A DNA stretch of 24,538 nt from a virus, in the IMG/VR virus record IMGVR_UViG_3300025466_000165, positions 1 through 24,538 of that record, one strand, 5' to 3'. The position numbers and the translations under genes were made by a program. Shown here in pieces: positions 20-11,783 of the stretch. The notes under the pieces were generated by a model that was given only the letters and a program-made list of their open reading frames with translations, had not been told where the DNA came from and searched no databases. How positions within the stretch are numbered: position 1 is the stretch's first letter; the number at the start of each line of letters is the position of its first letter.

Positions 20-355
20 TCATTTAGTTTTATCACGCTTAGATGAGTTACAACTACGACAACAGGCAGCTAAGTTGGCCATATCTAGCGCTAGTGTCTT
101 GTCAACAGCTAGGGGGATGATGTGATCAACCGTGGCATCAAGCCCGGCTAATTTTTTCTGGCACTTGTAGCACGTCCACTGGTCACGATCTAAGACAATT
201 CGTCTGACCTTCTGCCACTGCGAACCATAACCTCTGTCAGTTGTGTTTGCTTTTGGTTTCGCATTTATTCTCTGCAACATATTCGCTGCACAATTAGGAC
301 AACGACTTGCACGAGTTGGAACGCCGCAATCTAAACACGAACGCATTAGCCCCAT
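20..355 (-). CDS. HNH endonuclease (packaging-associated type)
   Basis: A 111-aa protein with an N-terminal zinc-finger-like pair (C7-x2-C10 and C19-x2-C22). An HNH nuclease core follows: the GYGSQW...RDQWTCYKC stretch (C62, C65), the catalytic DH pair at 77-78, and a closing C-x2-C-N (C99, C102, N103). This is the architecture of small phage HNH proteins that sit beside terminase and, in HK97-like phages, assist DNA packaging by nicking. It is the last gene before the left edge, so terminase may follow downstream, but that is inference. The gene starts 9 bases after the Ntn-hydrolase stop and has no strong Shine-Dalgarno; a second ATG lies three codons in. Confidence 0.85.
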   Translation of the reverse strand: MGLMRSCLDCGVPTRASRCPNCAANMLQRINAKPKANTTDRGYGSQWQKVRRIVLDRDQWTCYKCQKKLAGLDATVDHIIPLAVDKTLALDMANLAACCRSCNSSKRDKTK

Positions 356-364
356 GGTGTTAAA

Positions 365-901
365 TTATTTTTCTTGCGCGATGTGAATATAGGGCGCGGA
401 TGTGTAAGCATCATTCGCCGCTGCAATCTCAATCGCTTTTGTTAAGTCAGCGCCAGCGCATAACGCACCGATTCCATACGATGAACCAGAACCGACTCCG
501 TAATATCCAACGTCACTCAATGAGACACTGAAATCATCAGCAATCTCGAACACTTGACCGCAGACAGAAATCAAAAATGCAAATCGTGAATCATCACTTG
601 AATCGCCATCAAGTTTGTAATCGTTATCTTTAAAACATTTTTTCAGTGATGGAATAACTTTTGCAATCATGAAATGATAAATATCTTTTTTGTCTGCTGC
701 TGTTGGTGTTGGTGGATTCCATAAATGTTGCGCGATGTCACAAGCTGCAACTTCACCAGAACCAGCAATTAAAAATCTGTTACGTTCTGAAATCTTTGAC
801 ATTTTCTCGTGACGATAAATTCTTCCGTTAGGAGCAGTCACTTGATTGTCAGCAATAAACTCAACGCGATCAGTAAATTGCACGGCGAGAATTGTTGTCA
901 T
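365..901 (-). CDS. HslV/proteasome-type Ntn-hydrolase peptidase
   Basis: A 178-aa protein that resembles HslV (ClpQ), the threonine peptidase of the HslUV protease, along its whole length and at nearly the same size. It begins MTTILAV; removal of Met exposes Thr1 as in HslV (TTIVSV). Mature Asp17 lies in IADNQVT, aligned with HslV AGDGQAT, and Lys35 (or Lys32) in HEKMSKI matches catalytic Lys33 after a short insertion. The GVGSGSSYG motif (135-143) corresponds to the HslV IGSGG turn, and the C-terminal YIHI resembles the HslV end. No HslU-like ATPase is visible. The start overlaps the previous gene by 4 bases (ATGA). Possible roles are virion-protein maturation, host protein turnover or a structural use of the fold; the family call is firm, the role unknown. 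Confidence 0.8.
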   Translation of the reverse strand: MTTILAVQFTDRVEFIADNQVTAPNGRIYRHEKMSKISERNRFLIAGSGEVAACDIAQHLWNPPTPTAADKKDIYHFMIAKVIPSLKKCFKDNDYKLDGDSSDDSRFAFLISVCGQVFEIADDFSVSLSDVGYYGVGSGSSYGIGALCAGADLTKAIEIAAANDAYTSAPYIHIAQEK

Positions 902-1050
902 TTTTTCGCCGCGTTCCTCTCGTCTAATAATTCATCTATGAATTCCCAGATGATGTGCTTACGAGAATCGCGTGTGTTTTTCTTGGATTCGACTGCGTGT
1001 TGTAACGCCTCGTCGATTTCCTCAATTTTCGGTTCTTTCGGGGATTTCAT
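898..1050 (-). CDS. Small hypothetical protein, helical
   Basis: A 50-aa highly charged protein (MKSPKEPKIEEIDE... ending DELLDERNAAKK) with no recognisable domain; it looks mostly alpha-helical. Its TGA overlaps the ATG of the HslV-like gene (ATGA), which suggests translational coupling and makes it a possible partner of that peptidase. The start is the only ATG after an in-frame TAG at 1078-1080. There is no clear Shine-Dalgarno. A small inverted repeat (TAGAC-3-GTCTA, 1068-1080) lies just upstream. Confidence 0.6.
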   Translation of the reverse strand: MKSPKEPKIEEIDEALQHAVESKKNTRDSRKHIIWEFIDELLDERNAAKK

Positions 1051-1121: not shown

Positions 1122-1826
1122 TCAAATTCGACGCGCCGCTAGAAATTGAGTCAAATTGAAAAGCTGGCCTCGGCGCTGGATTTCATGGCGCTTGGCAAAT
1201 ACCTGAACAGCTTTTGGCGCGATTCCCAGATATTCGCTGATTGCCTCGGCATCGAGCCAGACTTCGCGTCGGGAATCAGTCAAGGCAACTGCCATGAGCC
1301 GAATCGCCGTCCATTCGGTTTGGCAATTTCGGCACCGGACGATTTCCATCATTTCGCCGTCGCGGATTTTCAGAAGTTGTCCGCAAGGCTCGCCATTTTC
1401 GCCGTCGGCTGGGCATGGAATGAATTTTGACTTTTCAACGACATGGCGTGAAGCGACTTTGCCCATTTCGTGCAGATCATGGATTTCGCCAGCGTAATCA
1501 GCGAACCATTCTTGCTGACTGGACCATTCCAGATGTGCCAAGGCAAAATCGACGGTTTTCTTGATTTCACGCCCGAGGCTTTTGCGACGGACCAGCGCTG
1601 GTGGCGTCAAATGACGATCGGCGCGGATGATGACTTCCCACGAATGCAGGACTTTGAGAATGTCATCGCCCGCGATCCATGACAGAGCCGCCAGATTGAC
1701 CCCAAGCGTCCGTTCGCCTGATCCAGAGCCATGACCGCCGTTTCCGGGTCGAAGCTCCTCATGCGCCCAACGCCAAAAGTCATAAATCTCGGCAAGCTCG
1801 GTGCTGGCGCGCTTGAATGGGTTCAT
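1122..1826 (-). CDS. Zinc-ribbon and helix-turn-helix DNA-binding protein
   Basis: A 234-aa protein. The N-terminal half is helical and unrecognised. A zinc ribbon follows (C138, C148, then C165-x2-C168), and the C-terminus (about 191-234) has the pattern of an excisionase/MerR-like winged helix (WLDAEAISEYLGIAPKAVQV). Such proteins are common in actinophages and are generally taken as DNA-binding; the regulatory role is inference. The ATG at 1826 was preferred over an in-frame TTG at 1832 that overlaps the upstream stop. It is the second gene after the palindrome-rich region, so it could act there. Confidence 0.65.
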   Translation of the reverse strand: MNPFKRASTELAEIYDFWRWAHEELRPGNGGHGSGSGERTLGVNLAALSWIAGDDILKVLHSWEVIIRADRHLTPPALVRRKSLGREIKKTVDFALAHLEWSSQQEWFADYAGEIHDLHEMGKVASRHVVEKSKFIPCPADGENGEPCGQLLKIRDGEMMEIVRCRNCQTEWTAIRLMAVALTDSRREVWLDAEAISEYLGIAPKAVQVFAKRHEIQRRGQLFNLTQFLAARRI

Positions 1827-1828
1827 GG

Positions 1829-2197
1829 TCAAAAAGGTATCCCATCGGACTCGACTTTTGCGGGATTGGGGTAATAGTCGGGATGTGTTGCCACGAACGC
1901 CATCTCACACCGATGCTCCACAAGTTTGATGTGGTTGTTGGCGGCCATCATCCGAATCTTGGTCCGGTAATCGGCGATGAAGGATTTTGCCGACCGACGA
2001 ATCTCGAAGGTGGGAATCTGGTCGAGGTAATACTTGAGGTCATTTTCAGGGTTGAGTCGGGTCGTATCAAGTTTCACTTTCCAGACGCCGCCAGCCAGAA
2101 CGACCCAGATCGCGGATTGACAGCGATTGCATCGGTCGGCATTGGCGTCCTCGGATAACCGATAGCGGGGAACGCTGAATAAGTCAGGAGTGGTCAT
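1829..2197 (-). CDS. Hypothetical protein with Cys pairs, possibly zinc-binding
   Basis: A 122-aa protein with a C23-x2-C26 knuckle (RCNRCQSAIW) and a later His/Cys pair (VEHRCE) that could complete a zinc site. The body after the knuckle has alternating hydrophobic residues. No family is recognised. It is the first gene after the 254-base repeat/palindrome region, so its promoter must lie there. A TTGGAG-17-TACCTT arrangement (2237 to 2209) would start transcription only a few bases before the ATG, implying a nearly leaderless mRNA; this is weak. The stop nearly touches the next start. Confidence 0.6.
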   Translation of the reverse strand: MTTPDLFSVPRYRLSEDANADRCNRCQSAIWVVLAGGVWKVKLDTTRLNPENDLKYYLDQIPTFEIRRSAKSFIADYRTKIRMMAANNHIKLVEHRCEMAFVATHPDYYPNPAKVESDGIPF

Positions 2198-7332: not shown

Positions 7333-7746
7333 TTAGTAGAAATTGTGCTTGAGTTCGTTGGCTTTTGCAGCGCATGGTCCACCAGAACCGTAACGCTCCG
7401 AGATATAGGCAAGCATCGCCACCAGTTGAGCCTTCTGGTCGTTCGAGTGCTTTATTCCGAGGTTTCTGTAGGTAGATGCGAGAAGCTGCCCAATTCCTCG
7501 CGCTGAGCTGGTCGGAGACTTGGCGTAAGGATTCTCATGTGATTCGACCGTCATGACATATCGAAGGCATTCGTACTGCTTTGGAATCAAAAGTTCCCGG
7601 GCAACCTGATCCGCTGTGGCGTCGGTGAAGGCCACTTCGTGAGTGATAACCAACGGCGAGTGGATATGGTTGATGACGAATGCGACATTGACGCCAAGCA
7701 AAATCGTGAGGAATAAACGAAGACCGAATTGCCACCAAGTAATCAT
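7333..7746 (-). CDS. Membrane-anchored SLT/lysozyme-like protein
   Basis: A 137-aa protein with an N-terminal signal anchor (about 7-27, LRLFLTILLGVNVAFVI) and a C-terminal transglycosylase-like domain: Glu68 in MTVESHENPYAKSP is the likely catalytic acid, followed by SSARGIGQLLASTYR, then LAYISERYGSG and the end ELKHNFY. Actinobacterial secreted SLT/aggregation-factor-type domains show the same string, and C60 and C125 could form a disulphide outside the cell. It would cut or remodel peptidoglycan. Its place in the replication operon, away from the lysis genes, is unusual. The start overlaps the WhiB stop. Confidence 0.75.
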   Translation of the reverse strand: MITWWQFGLRLFLTILLGVNVAFVINHIHSPLVITHEVAFTDATADQVARELLIPKQYECLRYVMTVESHENPYAKSPTSSARGIGQLLASTYRNLGIKHSNDQKAQLVAMLAYISERYGSGGPCAAKANELKHNFY

Positions 7747-8150
7747 CGGTTCATCCGTTCCACTGCTTTTTTGTATCGGATGATGGCCGTGACAACACTG
7801 TCAGCTTTGATTCCCAGAATATGTCCAATTTCTTCGTTTGTGTAGCCTTGTTGCTTGAAAGAGACAGCTCTCGCCCCCTTGGAATGGGCGACTCGTCCAG
7901 AAACCTTTCGAGGTTGGAAACGAGTTCGCTCACGTTCAGTCTGCCCGCCCCATATTCCGTCTGGAATTGCGTGATCCACGGCGTATTTGAGGCAATCCAC
8001 TTGGTGATCGCATCGTCCGCAGATTGACTTGGCGTGGGGAGTGTTGATGCGCCGTTCTTCGCTAGTTTCCGGGAACCAGAGCTCTGGGTCGACTTCCGCG
8101 CATAACGGATTGTCGAAGTCTGGAAAATTCTTAAAAATTTCATTCAACAT
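7743..8150 (-). CDS. WhiB-family transcription factor with C-terminal HTH
   Basis: A 135-aa protein. The WhiB domain shows four iron-sulphur cysteines (C17, then C44-x2-C47-x5-C53) and the GIWGG turn (65-69). Residues about 92-130 (SKGARAVSFKQQGYTNEEIGHILGIK...) look like a helix-turn-helix as in sigma region 4 or LuxR-like proteins, beyond the basic tail usual for the family. WhiB proteins are confined to Actinobacteria and their phages and bind the housekeeping sigma factor; phage copies can override host WhiB regulation. The start at 8150 was chosen as the longer frame overlaps the upstream gene by 80 bases. Confidence 0.9.
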   Translation of the reverse strand: MLNEIFKNFPDFDNPLCAEVDPELWFPETSEERRINTPHAKSICGRCDHQVDCLKYAVDHAIPDGIWGGQTERERTRFQPRKVSGRVAHSKGARAVSFKQQGYTNEEIGHILGIKADSVVTAIIRYKKAVERMNR

Positions 8151-8508
8151 TCCTGTCGCCGTATCCTGCTTCTCTGAGTAGTTGAACGATGTCGGAGATG
8201 GACATAACTGCCCACCAATCACCGGGCCGAGTTAACCCGACGCCGTTAGGTTTTACAACAAGAATTCCGTAGTCGGCCTTAGCGTGCTTGGTCTCGAGCT
8301 TTGTCTCCTCAAGCCATGCAGGGATTTTGTAGGTGCGATGGCTCTTGACTTCCCATGCCAGACACGGAGTTCCGGTGACATCTCCGAGATCCTCGCCTGA
8401 GTTTCCCCCACCCAGTGCGCGGCGCTCTGCCCCCGGAAATCCGTGACCTTGTAGGAATCTCACCAGAGCTGTCTCTGCTGATGTCCCCTTAGCCTTGGCC
8501 TTGGACAC
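8140..8508 (-). CDS. PD-(D/E)XK Holliday junction resolvase-like nuclease
   Basis: A 122-aa basic protein with the resolvase/VRR-like order: KGTSAETALVRFLQGHGF, AERRALGGG, Asp43 in LGDVTG, Glu53-Val-Lys55 in AWEVKSH, and a closing GDWWAVMSISDIVQLL. This pattern is typical of actinophage proteins called Holliday junction resolvases. It would resolve branched DNA during replication or before packaging. It uses a GTG start with AAGGG upstream, sharing one base with the previous stop. Confidence 0.75.
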   Translation of the reverse strand: MSKAKAKGTSAETALVRFLQGHGFPGAERRALGGGNSGEDLGDVTGTPCLAWEVKSHRTYKIPAWLEETKLETKHAKADYGILVVKPNGVGLTRPGDWWAVMSISDIVQLLREAGYGDRNVE

Positions 8509-9335: not shown

Positions 9336-9884
9336 TTAAGGGTTTTCGGTGGCGATTTCGCCTGAGATGGCCATATAAGCCGCGGCGTCGATGAAGCTGT
9401 CGAGATGCTCCGGGGACTCGATGAGGCGGGCAACCTTGACCTGAGCCATGCAGAGGGCCACTTGCGCGGGGCTAATCTCGGTTTCTAATACAACCGACCA
9501 GAGAGCGGCGATGCGTTCGTGGTTCACTTTTGGAGTGCCGTAATTCTTGTCACGGTCACCATGAGTCAGCCGATTGGCTTCGTCGAGGATTTCCTTGCGG
9601 TTCATGAGCTTTGCCCCCTGATCGTCTTGCGTCCCCTTGGCCAAGTTGCAGGGAGCGCATAATGCTTGCAGATTGCTTTCATCATTCGTGCCACCCTTGG
9701 CGAGCGGAACGATGTGGTCAATGTGTGGCTCAATCTCGAAAAGACTAGCGCCGCAGTGTTGACACGTAAATCCGCAACGAGCCAAAATCCTCAACCGAAC
9801 CGTCTGTGGAAACGAAATTCGAGTCGTGGATTTTGGCTCCTTGCTGGCTTTGATTAGTTTCTTAATCTCGGCACGGAGAGTCAT
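9336..9884 (-). CDS. HNH endonuclease-DUF6378 fusion
   Basis: A 182-aa protein in two parts. Residues 25-85 form an HNH nuclease: C41-x2-C44, H54, D56-H57, N71 and C76-x2-C79-N. Residues 94-182 (MNRKEILDEANRLTHGDRDKNYG..., VNHERIAALW, PAQVALCMAQVKVARL, DSFIDAAAYMA) match DUF6378, usually a stand-alone phage protein of unknown function. At the junction, AGGGGG (9619-9614) lies 8 bases before an in-frame ATG (9605), so a separate DUF6378 product could also be made. The gene starts with an ATGA overlap and ends before the terminator. Confidence 0.8.
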   Translation of the reverse strand: MTLRAEIKKLIKASKEPKSTTRISFPQTVRLRILARCGFTCQHCGASLFEIEPHIDHIVPLAKGGTNDESNLQALCAPCNLAKGTQDDQGAKLMNRKEILDEANRLTHGDRDKNYGTPKVNHERIAALWSVVLETEISPAQVALCMAQVKVARLIESPEHLDSFIDAAAYMAISGEIATENP

Positions 9885-10954: not shown

Positions 10955-11440
10955 CTATTGGTAAATCAGACGCTCGGCTAAGTCGCCGGGGGTAACGAGG
11001 TAATCTTCTTTGCCGAAAAGTGGAATTCCTGCCTTGCGGTAGCACTCGGCCACCAATTCAGAGCAGATGTATCCATTCTTCGTCGAGAGATATTTCATGA
11101 GCTTGGTATTGGCAAGGATTTTCAACCCCAAAATACGGAATCCAAGATCAGCAATGACGAAAAACCCATAGGGCTTGCCGATAATCTGCCGAGCTTGGGC
11201 AACGATAATCAACCGCTGCTGGTCGTTGAGGACCTCGTGCTGATTCCAAGCGACGTAAGAATATTTCGACAGCGGGCTGATTTCGACGCCTTTAGGGTTG
11301 GCTTCGATAATCTGGTCGCCGCCGATGTAGATAAAGGCGTGATTCCAGCGGGAGAGAGTGCCGATACGAATCAGCTTTCCCATCAGCCCGTTGGTCTTGA
11401 CGCAACCGTAGTCCCCGATTCGGGGCTTGTAGTTACTCAT
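10955..11440 (-). CDS. Permuted NlpC/P60-like (YiiX/YebB-type) cysteine peptidase
   Basis: A 161-aa protein with the circularly permuted papain-like order: GDYGCVKTNG...RWNHAFIYIGGDQIIEA (His34, Glu47) first and GYICSELVAECY (Cys126) later. Permuted NlpC/P60 proteins of the YiiX group cleave amides or esters in cell-wall peptides or lipids. Next to the CHAP lysin, a second lytic activity is likely but not proven; an immunity or host-modification role is possible. ATG 11440 overlaps the previous stop and has GGAAG upstream. Its TAG contributes to the CHAP gene's AGGAG. Confidence 0.7.
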   Translation of the reverse strand: MSNYKPRIGDYGCVKTNGLMGKLIRIGTLSRWNHAFIYIGGDQIIEANPKGVEISPLSKYSYVAWNQHEVLNDQQRLIIVAQARQIIGKPYGFFVIADLGFRILGLKILANTKLMKYLSTKNGYICSELVAECYRKAGIPLFGKEDYLVTPGDLAERLIYQ

Positions 11441-11783
11441 AGTCTTCCAAGCTGTCAATCAAGTCCCGAAGGTCATCGGTCTGATTACGCTCGAGCTTGA
11501 GGATGTGTCGGATGATTTGAGCGTCCCGCTTAGTCTGCGAAAGCATGGAAATACCGACAATCAGCTCGATGATGACTGCGATGAAGCTGGCAATAAGCTG
11601 CCAGTGGACATAGGACGAATTATCCTTGAACCAGTGCGGACGAATCCACCAGACAATGCTGAGGACGGTCCAGAATATGATGAAAAACCAGTTACGGATG
11701 ACTCCTTGAACCTTCCACGAGACTTGCTCGCTAAAAGTTAAAACGTCACCGGTGTCTGGATGGATGAATTTCTTCTTAAACAT
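11433..11783 (-). CDS. Two-pass membrane protein
   Basis: A 116-aa protein with two transmembrane helices (NWFFIIFWTVLSIVWWI at about 31-47 and IASFIAVIIELIVGISML at about 64-81) and a C-terminal cytoplasmic coiled coil (RDAQIIRHILKLERNQTDDLRDLIDSLEDY). It faintly resembles DUF1003/low-affinity iron permease-like proteins. Next to lysins it could be a holin or a lysis-timing protein. ATG 11783 has GAGG upstream; longer starts overlap the small upstream gene. Confidence 0.6.
   Translation of the reverse strand: MFKKKFIHPDTGDVLTFSEQVSWKVQGVIRNWFFIIFWTVLSIVWWIRPHWFKDNSSYVHWQLIASFIAVIIELIVGISMLSQTKRDAQIIRHILKLERNQTDDLRDLIDSLEDYE

Follow-up and report, generated by a model that had tools for sequence, protein, structure and literature searches.

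The question raised by this locus is what role a proteasome-like threonine peptidase could have in a phage that shows no unfoldase to accompany it. We analyzed the window, the whole stretch of 24,538 nucleotides presented here (IMG/VR record IMGVR_UViG_3300025466_000165, positions 1 to 24,538), which comes from a freshwater actinobacterial phage. The phage origin is supported by its WhiB, tail and replication genes. The gene of interest (365..901, minus strand) encodes a 178-residue, BPH/AAH-like member of group I of the proteasome-like peptidases, as judged from PHROG 1040, an AlphaFold2 model, Foldseek searches and 114 relatives that we extracted, all of them from phages. The open reading frame starts with ATG and its product begins MTT-. 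The start residue is identical across the relatives, and in the closest siblings of the window the frame is closed by a stop about 10 codons upstream of the start.

The identity of the enzyme, an Ntn hydrolase of the proteasome-like family (Pfam PF00227 clan), is solid. The protein matched PHROG 1040, named "peptidase HslV family", with E = 4.9e-24. As a single sequence it gave a sub-threshold match to the Pfam Proteasome family (0.0021), and 20 of 21 relatives matched that family, the best at 2.5e-6. A PDB search with a query profile built from 21 relatives placed BPH first (5ovu, 1.8e-10; 5ovs, 1.1e-8), followed by HslV (~1e-6) and then proteasome beta. These matches, and the structural ones described below, bear out the proposal of the first-pass annotation that this is a proteasome-type threonine peptidase. 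Its further statement that the protein aligns with HslV over the full length did not hold. The NCBIfam HslV equivalog models matched residues 1-37 only, at 15 bits versus cut-offs of 137-158 bits, and the full-length resemblance was to BPH and PHROG 1040. By the equivalog score, below the cut-offs, and the lack of a detected HslU, the protein is not a true HslV.

The catalytic residues that had been picked out from the sequence were all in place. Thr1, the putative nucleophile after removal of Met, is residue 2 (codon at 896..898, minus strand, as are all features of this gene), Asp17 is residue 18 (848..850) and Lys33 is residue 36 (794..796). Each of the three was present in 114/114 relatives, giving an invariant triad, with no loss in close relatives. 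The oxyanion Gly47 (residue 49; 755..757) was found in 112/114. In the GSG turn (residues 137-139; 485..493), G137 and G139 were present in all 114 relatives and S138 in 104. The C-terminal region, where equivalents of Asp166 and Ser169 are expected, was not strictly conserved in the family. We favor an active enzyme because the catalytic triad is invariant. Values of dN/dS were between 0.05 and 0.20 in the nine pairs for which dS could be estimated, showing that the gene is under purifying selection.

We used AlphaFold2 to model the monomer (pLDDT 91.3) and obtained the complete layout of a proteasome beta subunit, including helices H1-H4. A Foldseek search of the PDB with this model gave 908 matches at E ≤ 0.001. 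The best was BPH (5ovs, E = 5.4e-11, TM 0.74), HslV and proteasome beta chains came next, and the best 50 of the 908 were all BPH, HslV/ClpQ or proteasome chains. A structure search of BFVD recovered dozens of phage proteins with the same fold. Helix H2 spans residues 68-92 in the model, and H1 and H2 are among the best conserved segments of the protein (mean entropy 1.0, compared to 1.39 overall). In known members of the family, these two helices make the contacts between subunits (PMC8665760). The loop that leads from H2 into the following strand (residues 93-106; 584..625) coincides in position with the pore loop of BPH and is acidic: Asp and Glu account for 37% of its residues among the 114 relatives, compared to 13% over the entire protein. 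BPH is told apart from HslV by its hallmark, a long acidic pore loop after H2 (PMC5777263).

As had been noted at the outset, no unfoldase was visible in the window, and we recognized none in 26 related viral records. No unfoldase of the AAA_2 type (HslU/ClpX-type) was found in these records, which may be incomplete, and an HslU of the host could possibly be used. AAA-family matches occurred in 10/26 records. We considered that an unfoldase had been missed among them and rejected this for two of the strongest matches, the two that we inspected: one is a DnaB/RecA-like ATPase, the other an IstB/DnaC-like protein.

The peptidase family is widespread among phages of freshwater Actinobacteria. An actinobacterial host is indicated by a WhiB gene in the window (7743..8222, minus strand; Pfam Whib, 4.9e-17) and in 22 of the 26 related records. 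The family occurs in more than 500 IMG/VR stretches and in two cultured phages, OX376640 (titled LanE43-AprE7) and OX376641. These correspond to Planktophila phages E7 and F5, respectively (PMC10202952), where we infer the identity of OX376641 with F5. More distant homologues were found in phages of Microbacterium, Arthrobacter, Vibrio, Klebsiella, E. coli and Caulobacter. A host-derived gene was also considered and rejected: no GTDB genome was found to encode the protein in scans with strict patterns taken from its close family. The G+C content of the peptidase gene is the lowest among the 40 open reading frames of the window (40.4%, compared to a mean of 50.5 and an SD of 4.1), as if the locus had been acquired later in the lineage of the window. 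Both neighbouring genes are likewise low in G+C. The offset is smaller or absent in most other contexts of the gene.

In the window, the peptidase gene lies between packaging genes and a boundary gene of the zinc-ribbon/HTH kind. On one side is an HNH endonuclease gene (20..355, minus strand; Pfam HNH, 6e-9), the first gene of the packaging side. Its expected link to packaging was confirmed: TerS and TerL follow it in L007, L008 and L009, and L008 reads HNH-TerS-TerL-portal. On the other side, a gene for a zinc-ribbon/HTH protein (1122..1832, minus strand; phrog_1467, 5e-15) forms the upstream boundary of the cargo slot, and it is present in loci both with and without the peptidase. We considered that this protein might be shared with Arthrobacter phage Pitbull, as the architectures look alike by eye; BLAST gave no support. 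Elsewhere in the window, an HNH endonuclease is fused to DUF6378 (9336-9884; 8.8e-30), and a gene for a permuted papain-like amidase of the YiiX/C92 family (10955-11458) overlaps the CHAP endolysin gene.

A 50-residue open reading frame (898..1050, minus strand) overlaps the start of the peptidase gene by 4 nt, and this overlap was seen in 7/7 loci of its cluster. It had been suggested as a partner of the peptidase. The cluster is confined to the lineage of the window, and in L239, L241 and L243 the small gene is kept and other small open reading frames take the place of the peptidase. Because the 50-residue gene persists in these three loci with no peptidase in the slot, it is not a dedicated partner.

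We found the peptidase gene in at least five genomic contexts, with a gene order that varies by lineage. In context A, that of the window, the order is zinc-ribbon/HTH, 50-residue gene, peptidase, HNH, TerS, TerL, portal, S78-containing protein and MCP. In context B, that of the Planktophila phages, the order is TerL, portal, peptidase, phrog_8200, a protein of 1.5-1.9 kaa, a probable scaffold and MCP. The large protein between the portal and capsid genes of these phages (L004:8727-14021; L030:5460-11153) has no recognisable Pfam or PHROG domain. Context C places the peptidase downstream of a CHAP/PG-binding endolysin, across a gap of 66-77 bp in 28 loci (e.g. L104). The gap is 74-77 bp in 27 of these loci and 66 bp in one, and a promoter or regulatory element may lie within it. 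In context D, a gene of the histone-deacetylase family precedes the peptidase, in some loci separated from it by a GP88 gene. The histone-deacetylase-family protein of these freshwater actinophages (L050:5943-6866; Pfam Hist_deacetyl, 2.8e-55; cluster 4, 29 loci) is encoded immediately upstream of the peptidase in 19 loci and one gene away, with GP88 between, in others. In context E, the peptidase follows a RuvC-like resolvase. One 4.5 kb contig, L096, has two copies of the peptidase on opposite strands, possibly as the result of an assembly palindrome.

Presence and absence of the gene at a fixed position could be followed in two of these contexts. Among 69 portal-containing loci of context B with sufficient downstream sequence, the peptidase directly followed the portal in 60 and was lacking there in 9. 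The portals of the nine are 84-88% identical and no gene has replaced the peptidase; in the six that we annotated, the portal is followed directly by a small gene and then by phrog_8200. Two of the nine records (39.9 and 37.5 kb) have the peptidase nowhere. Given these 60 loci with the gene and nine lacking it at the slot, two of them lacking it altogether, the peptidase is a clean single-gene accessory cassette. In context A, 10 of the 14 TerL loci with room upstream had a homologue in the slot and 4 had none. The homologues in L222 and L228 are divergent (26-35% identical), and three more loci of this context have similarly weak profile scores. L239 has no homologue in the slot and has one elsewhere in its record (G038:18210-18737), which is evidence for gene movement or repeated acquisition. 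Overall, the peptidase behaves like a swappable accessory gene and not like a part of the virus particle.

The explanation that we favor, and think somewhat better than even, is that the gene encodes an intact, BPH-like compartmental threonine peptidase that works independently of an unfoldase and that freshwater actinophages, E7 and F5 among them, carry as accessory cargo. Removal of Met would free the amine of Thr1 to act as the nucleophile; for BPH, activation by removal of Met was shown by mass spectrometry (PMC5777263). Helices H1-H4 would hold the subunits together in a closed double ring of the BPH/HslV type, an assembly about which the modelled monomer says nothing direct. Substrates would be filtered by the acidic loop at the position of the pore instead of an AAA+ gate. 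During infection, and with no ATPase of its own, the particle would degrade unfolded or flexible proteins or peptides, such as host or host-defence proteins, possibly assisted by host chaperones. The gene would be single-gene cargo inserted at differing operon boundaries, and its product would have no structural or head-maturation role in the phage of the window. For accessory cargo, the removal of host or defence proteins is a more fitting task than a structural role.

A narrower form of the same explanation, in which the enzyme is an anti-defence or takeover protease directed at one specific host defence or regulatory protein, is possible, but we hold it only tentatively. Counter-defence cargo typically shows what is seen here, namely an accessory distribution, exchange of the slot with unrelated small open reading frames or divergent homologues, and purifying selection, but we recognized no defence-related neighbours. 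We found no described function for the phage-borne proteasome homologues listed by Fuchs et al. 2021. With cultured carriers and natural pairs of loci that have and lack the gene, the role of a phage proteasome homologue that has no unfoldase can be tested directly.

It is unlikely that the protein instead enters the 20S proteasome of the host and reprograms it, be it as a decoy, an inhibitor or a substitute subunit; the last two of these roles had been raised by the first-pass annotation, for the host proteasome or HslV. Many members of the Actinobacteria have 20S proteasomes, and WhiB points to such hosts. However, in sequence and fold the protein resembles BPH and HslV more closely than it does proteasome beta, and an invariant triad is not needed by a pure decoy. 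Phages of E. coli, Klebsiella and Vibrio carry homologues as well, and these hosts are not known to have a 20S proteasome.

We judge it just as improbable that the protein works as a monomer or small oligomer on one specific substrate, as a processing enzyme or a connectase-like ligase. The family does include connectase (PMC8665760), which shows that the fold can be a monomeric ligase. In addition, BPH had no activity on model substrates in vitro, yet bound epoxomicin (PMC5777263). This inactivity on general substrates would suit a specialised enzyme, and it also means that an active peptidase of the BPH type may fail in standard assays. The presence and conservation of H1-H2 and the lack of a visible S3/S4 insertion argue against a connectase-like enzyme.

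A role as a prohead (head maturation) protease, or as a protease that removes the scaffold, is more doubtful still. It draws on context B, where the gene occupies the usual place of a prohead protease between the portal and the scaffold and MCP genes (the 60 loci described above), and where we found no S78, phrog_80 or ClpP-type protease in the records. Because no conventional prohead protease was detected there, we checked whether the peptidase is dispensable, and its absence from this slot in nine close relatives argues against such a role. For the lineage of the window, a head maturation protease, as had been proposed from the sequence, can be rejected. The sibling contig L008, which shares 98.97% identity with the window over 1,848 bp and encodes an identical peptidase protein, continues with TerS, TerL and portal genes and then a gene for a separate protein that has an S78 prohead protease (2.5e-40), and the relative L009 also has an S78 prohead protease. 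Similarly, Microbacterium phage WaterT has both the peptidase gene and an annotated capsid maturation protease, and other lineages place the gene beside endolysin, histone-deacetylase-family or RuvC genes. In the Planktophila lineage (E7/F5) a head maturation role is unlikely, and the specific proposal that the peptidase removes scaffold or trims capsid proteins during head assembly there, which would leave the loci that lack the gene with no maturation proteolysis, seems to us very improbable.

The peptidase can be compared to several known systems. It differs in fold from prohead proteases of the S78, S14 and S49 types, being neither S78 nor ClpP-type. Unlike connectase, which lacks H1-H2 and carries an S3/S4 insertion, it retains the two helices with no insertion seen. 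With HslV it shares the fold, the triad and a Thr1 that follows the initiator Met, but it scores far below the equivalog cut-offs, has no HslU and has a pore region that is acidic rather than basic. Membership in PHROG 1040 is clear from the HMM match, but the name of that group is an annotation only and its members are diverse; we found no functional tests of them.

The general kind of protein is already known, as the phage-borne group I homologues described by Fuchs et al. 2021 are PPH, of about 140 residues and lacking H2, and AAH (PMC8665760). The window peptidase resembles PPH in being a phage-borne group I homologue with no unfoldase. It is not PPH, however, because it has 178 residues and a clear H2. 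BPH (5ovs/5ovu) is its best match by both sequence profile and structure, and the two share a Thr1 directly behind Met, the acidic loop that follows H2 and the lack of a partner unfoldase, none being known for BPH (PMC5777263). The differences are that BPH is only about 18-21% identical in structural alignments, is chromosomal rather than phage-borne and sits on a long separate branch of our tree, and that the phage proteins have another linker, bearing an invariant PP motif; the double ring, tetradecameric in BPH, is a prediction for the window peptidase. In the tree, the long BPH branch falls within an unresolved polytomy, the E7 homologue also has no firm place and the deep branches are unresolved.

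AAH is likewise group I, and a region of the type PP...Y.FM...[SA]LR.CL.D.G is common to the window peptidase and plasmid-borne Streptomyces/Rhizobium homologues. These homologues, chosen by host taxonomy, stood as AAH candidates in the tree, which did not include the reference WP_035979212. A long branch with 100/100 support separates them from the clade of the window, and the majority of the freshwater actinophage sequences group by themselves. Judging from this tree, the clade is probably not AAH. Fuchs et al. reported AAH from no phage specific to Actinobacteria (PMC8665760). We file the clade, a distinct branch, as a new phage-borne group I subfamily that is not HslV, PPH or BPH; it is abundant in freshwater actinophages, a host group with no reported phage carriers of AAH, the nearest described family.
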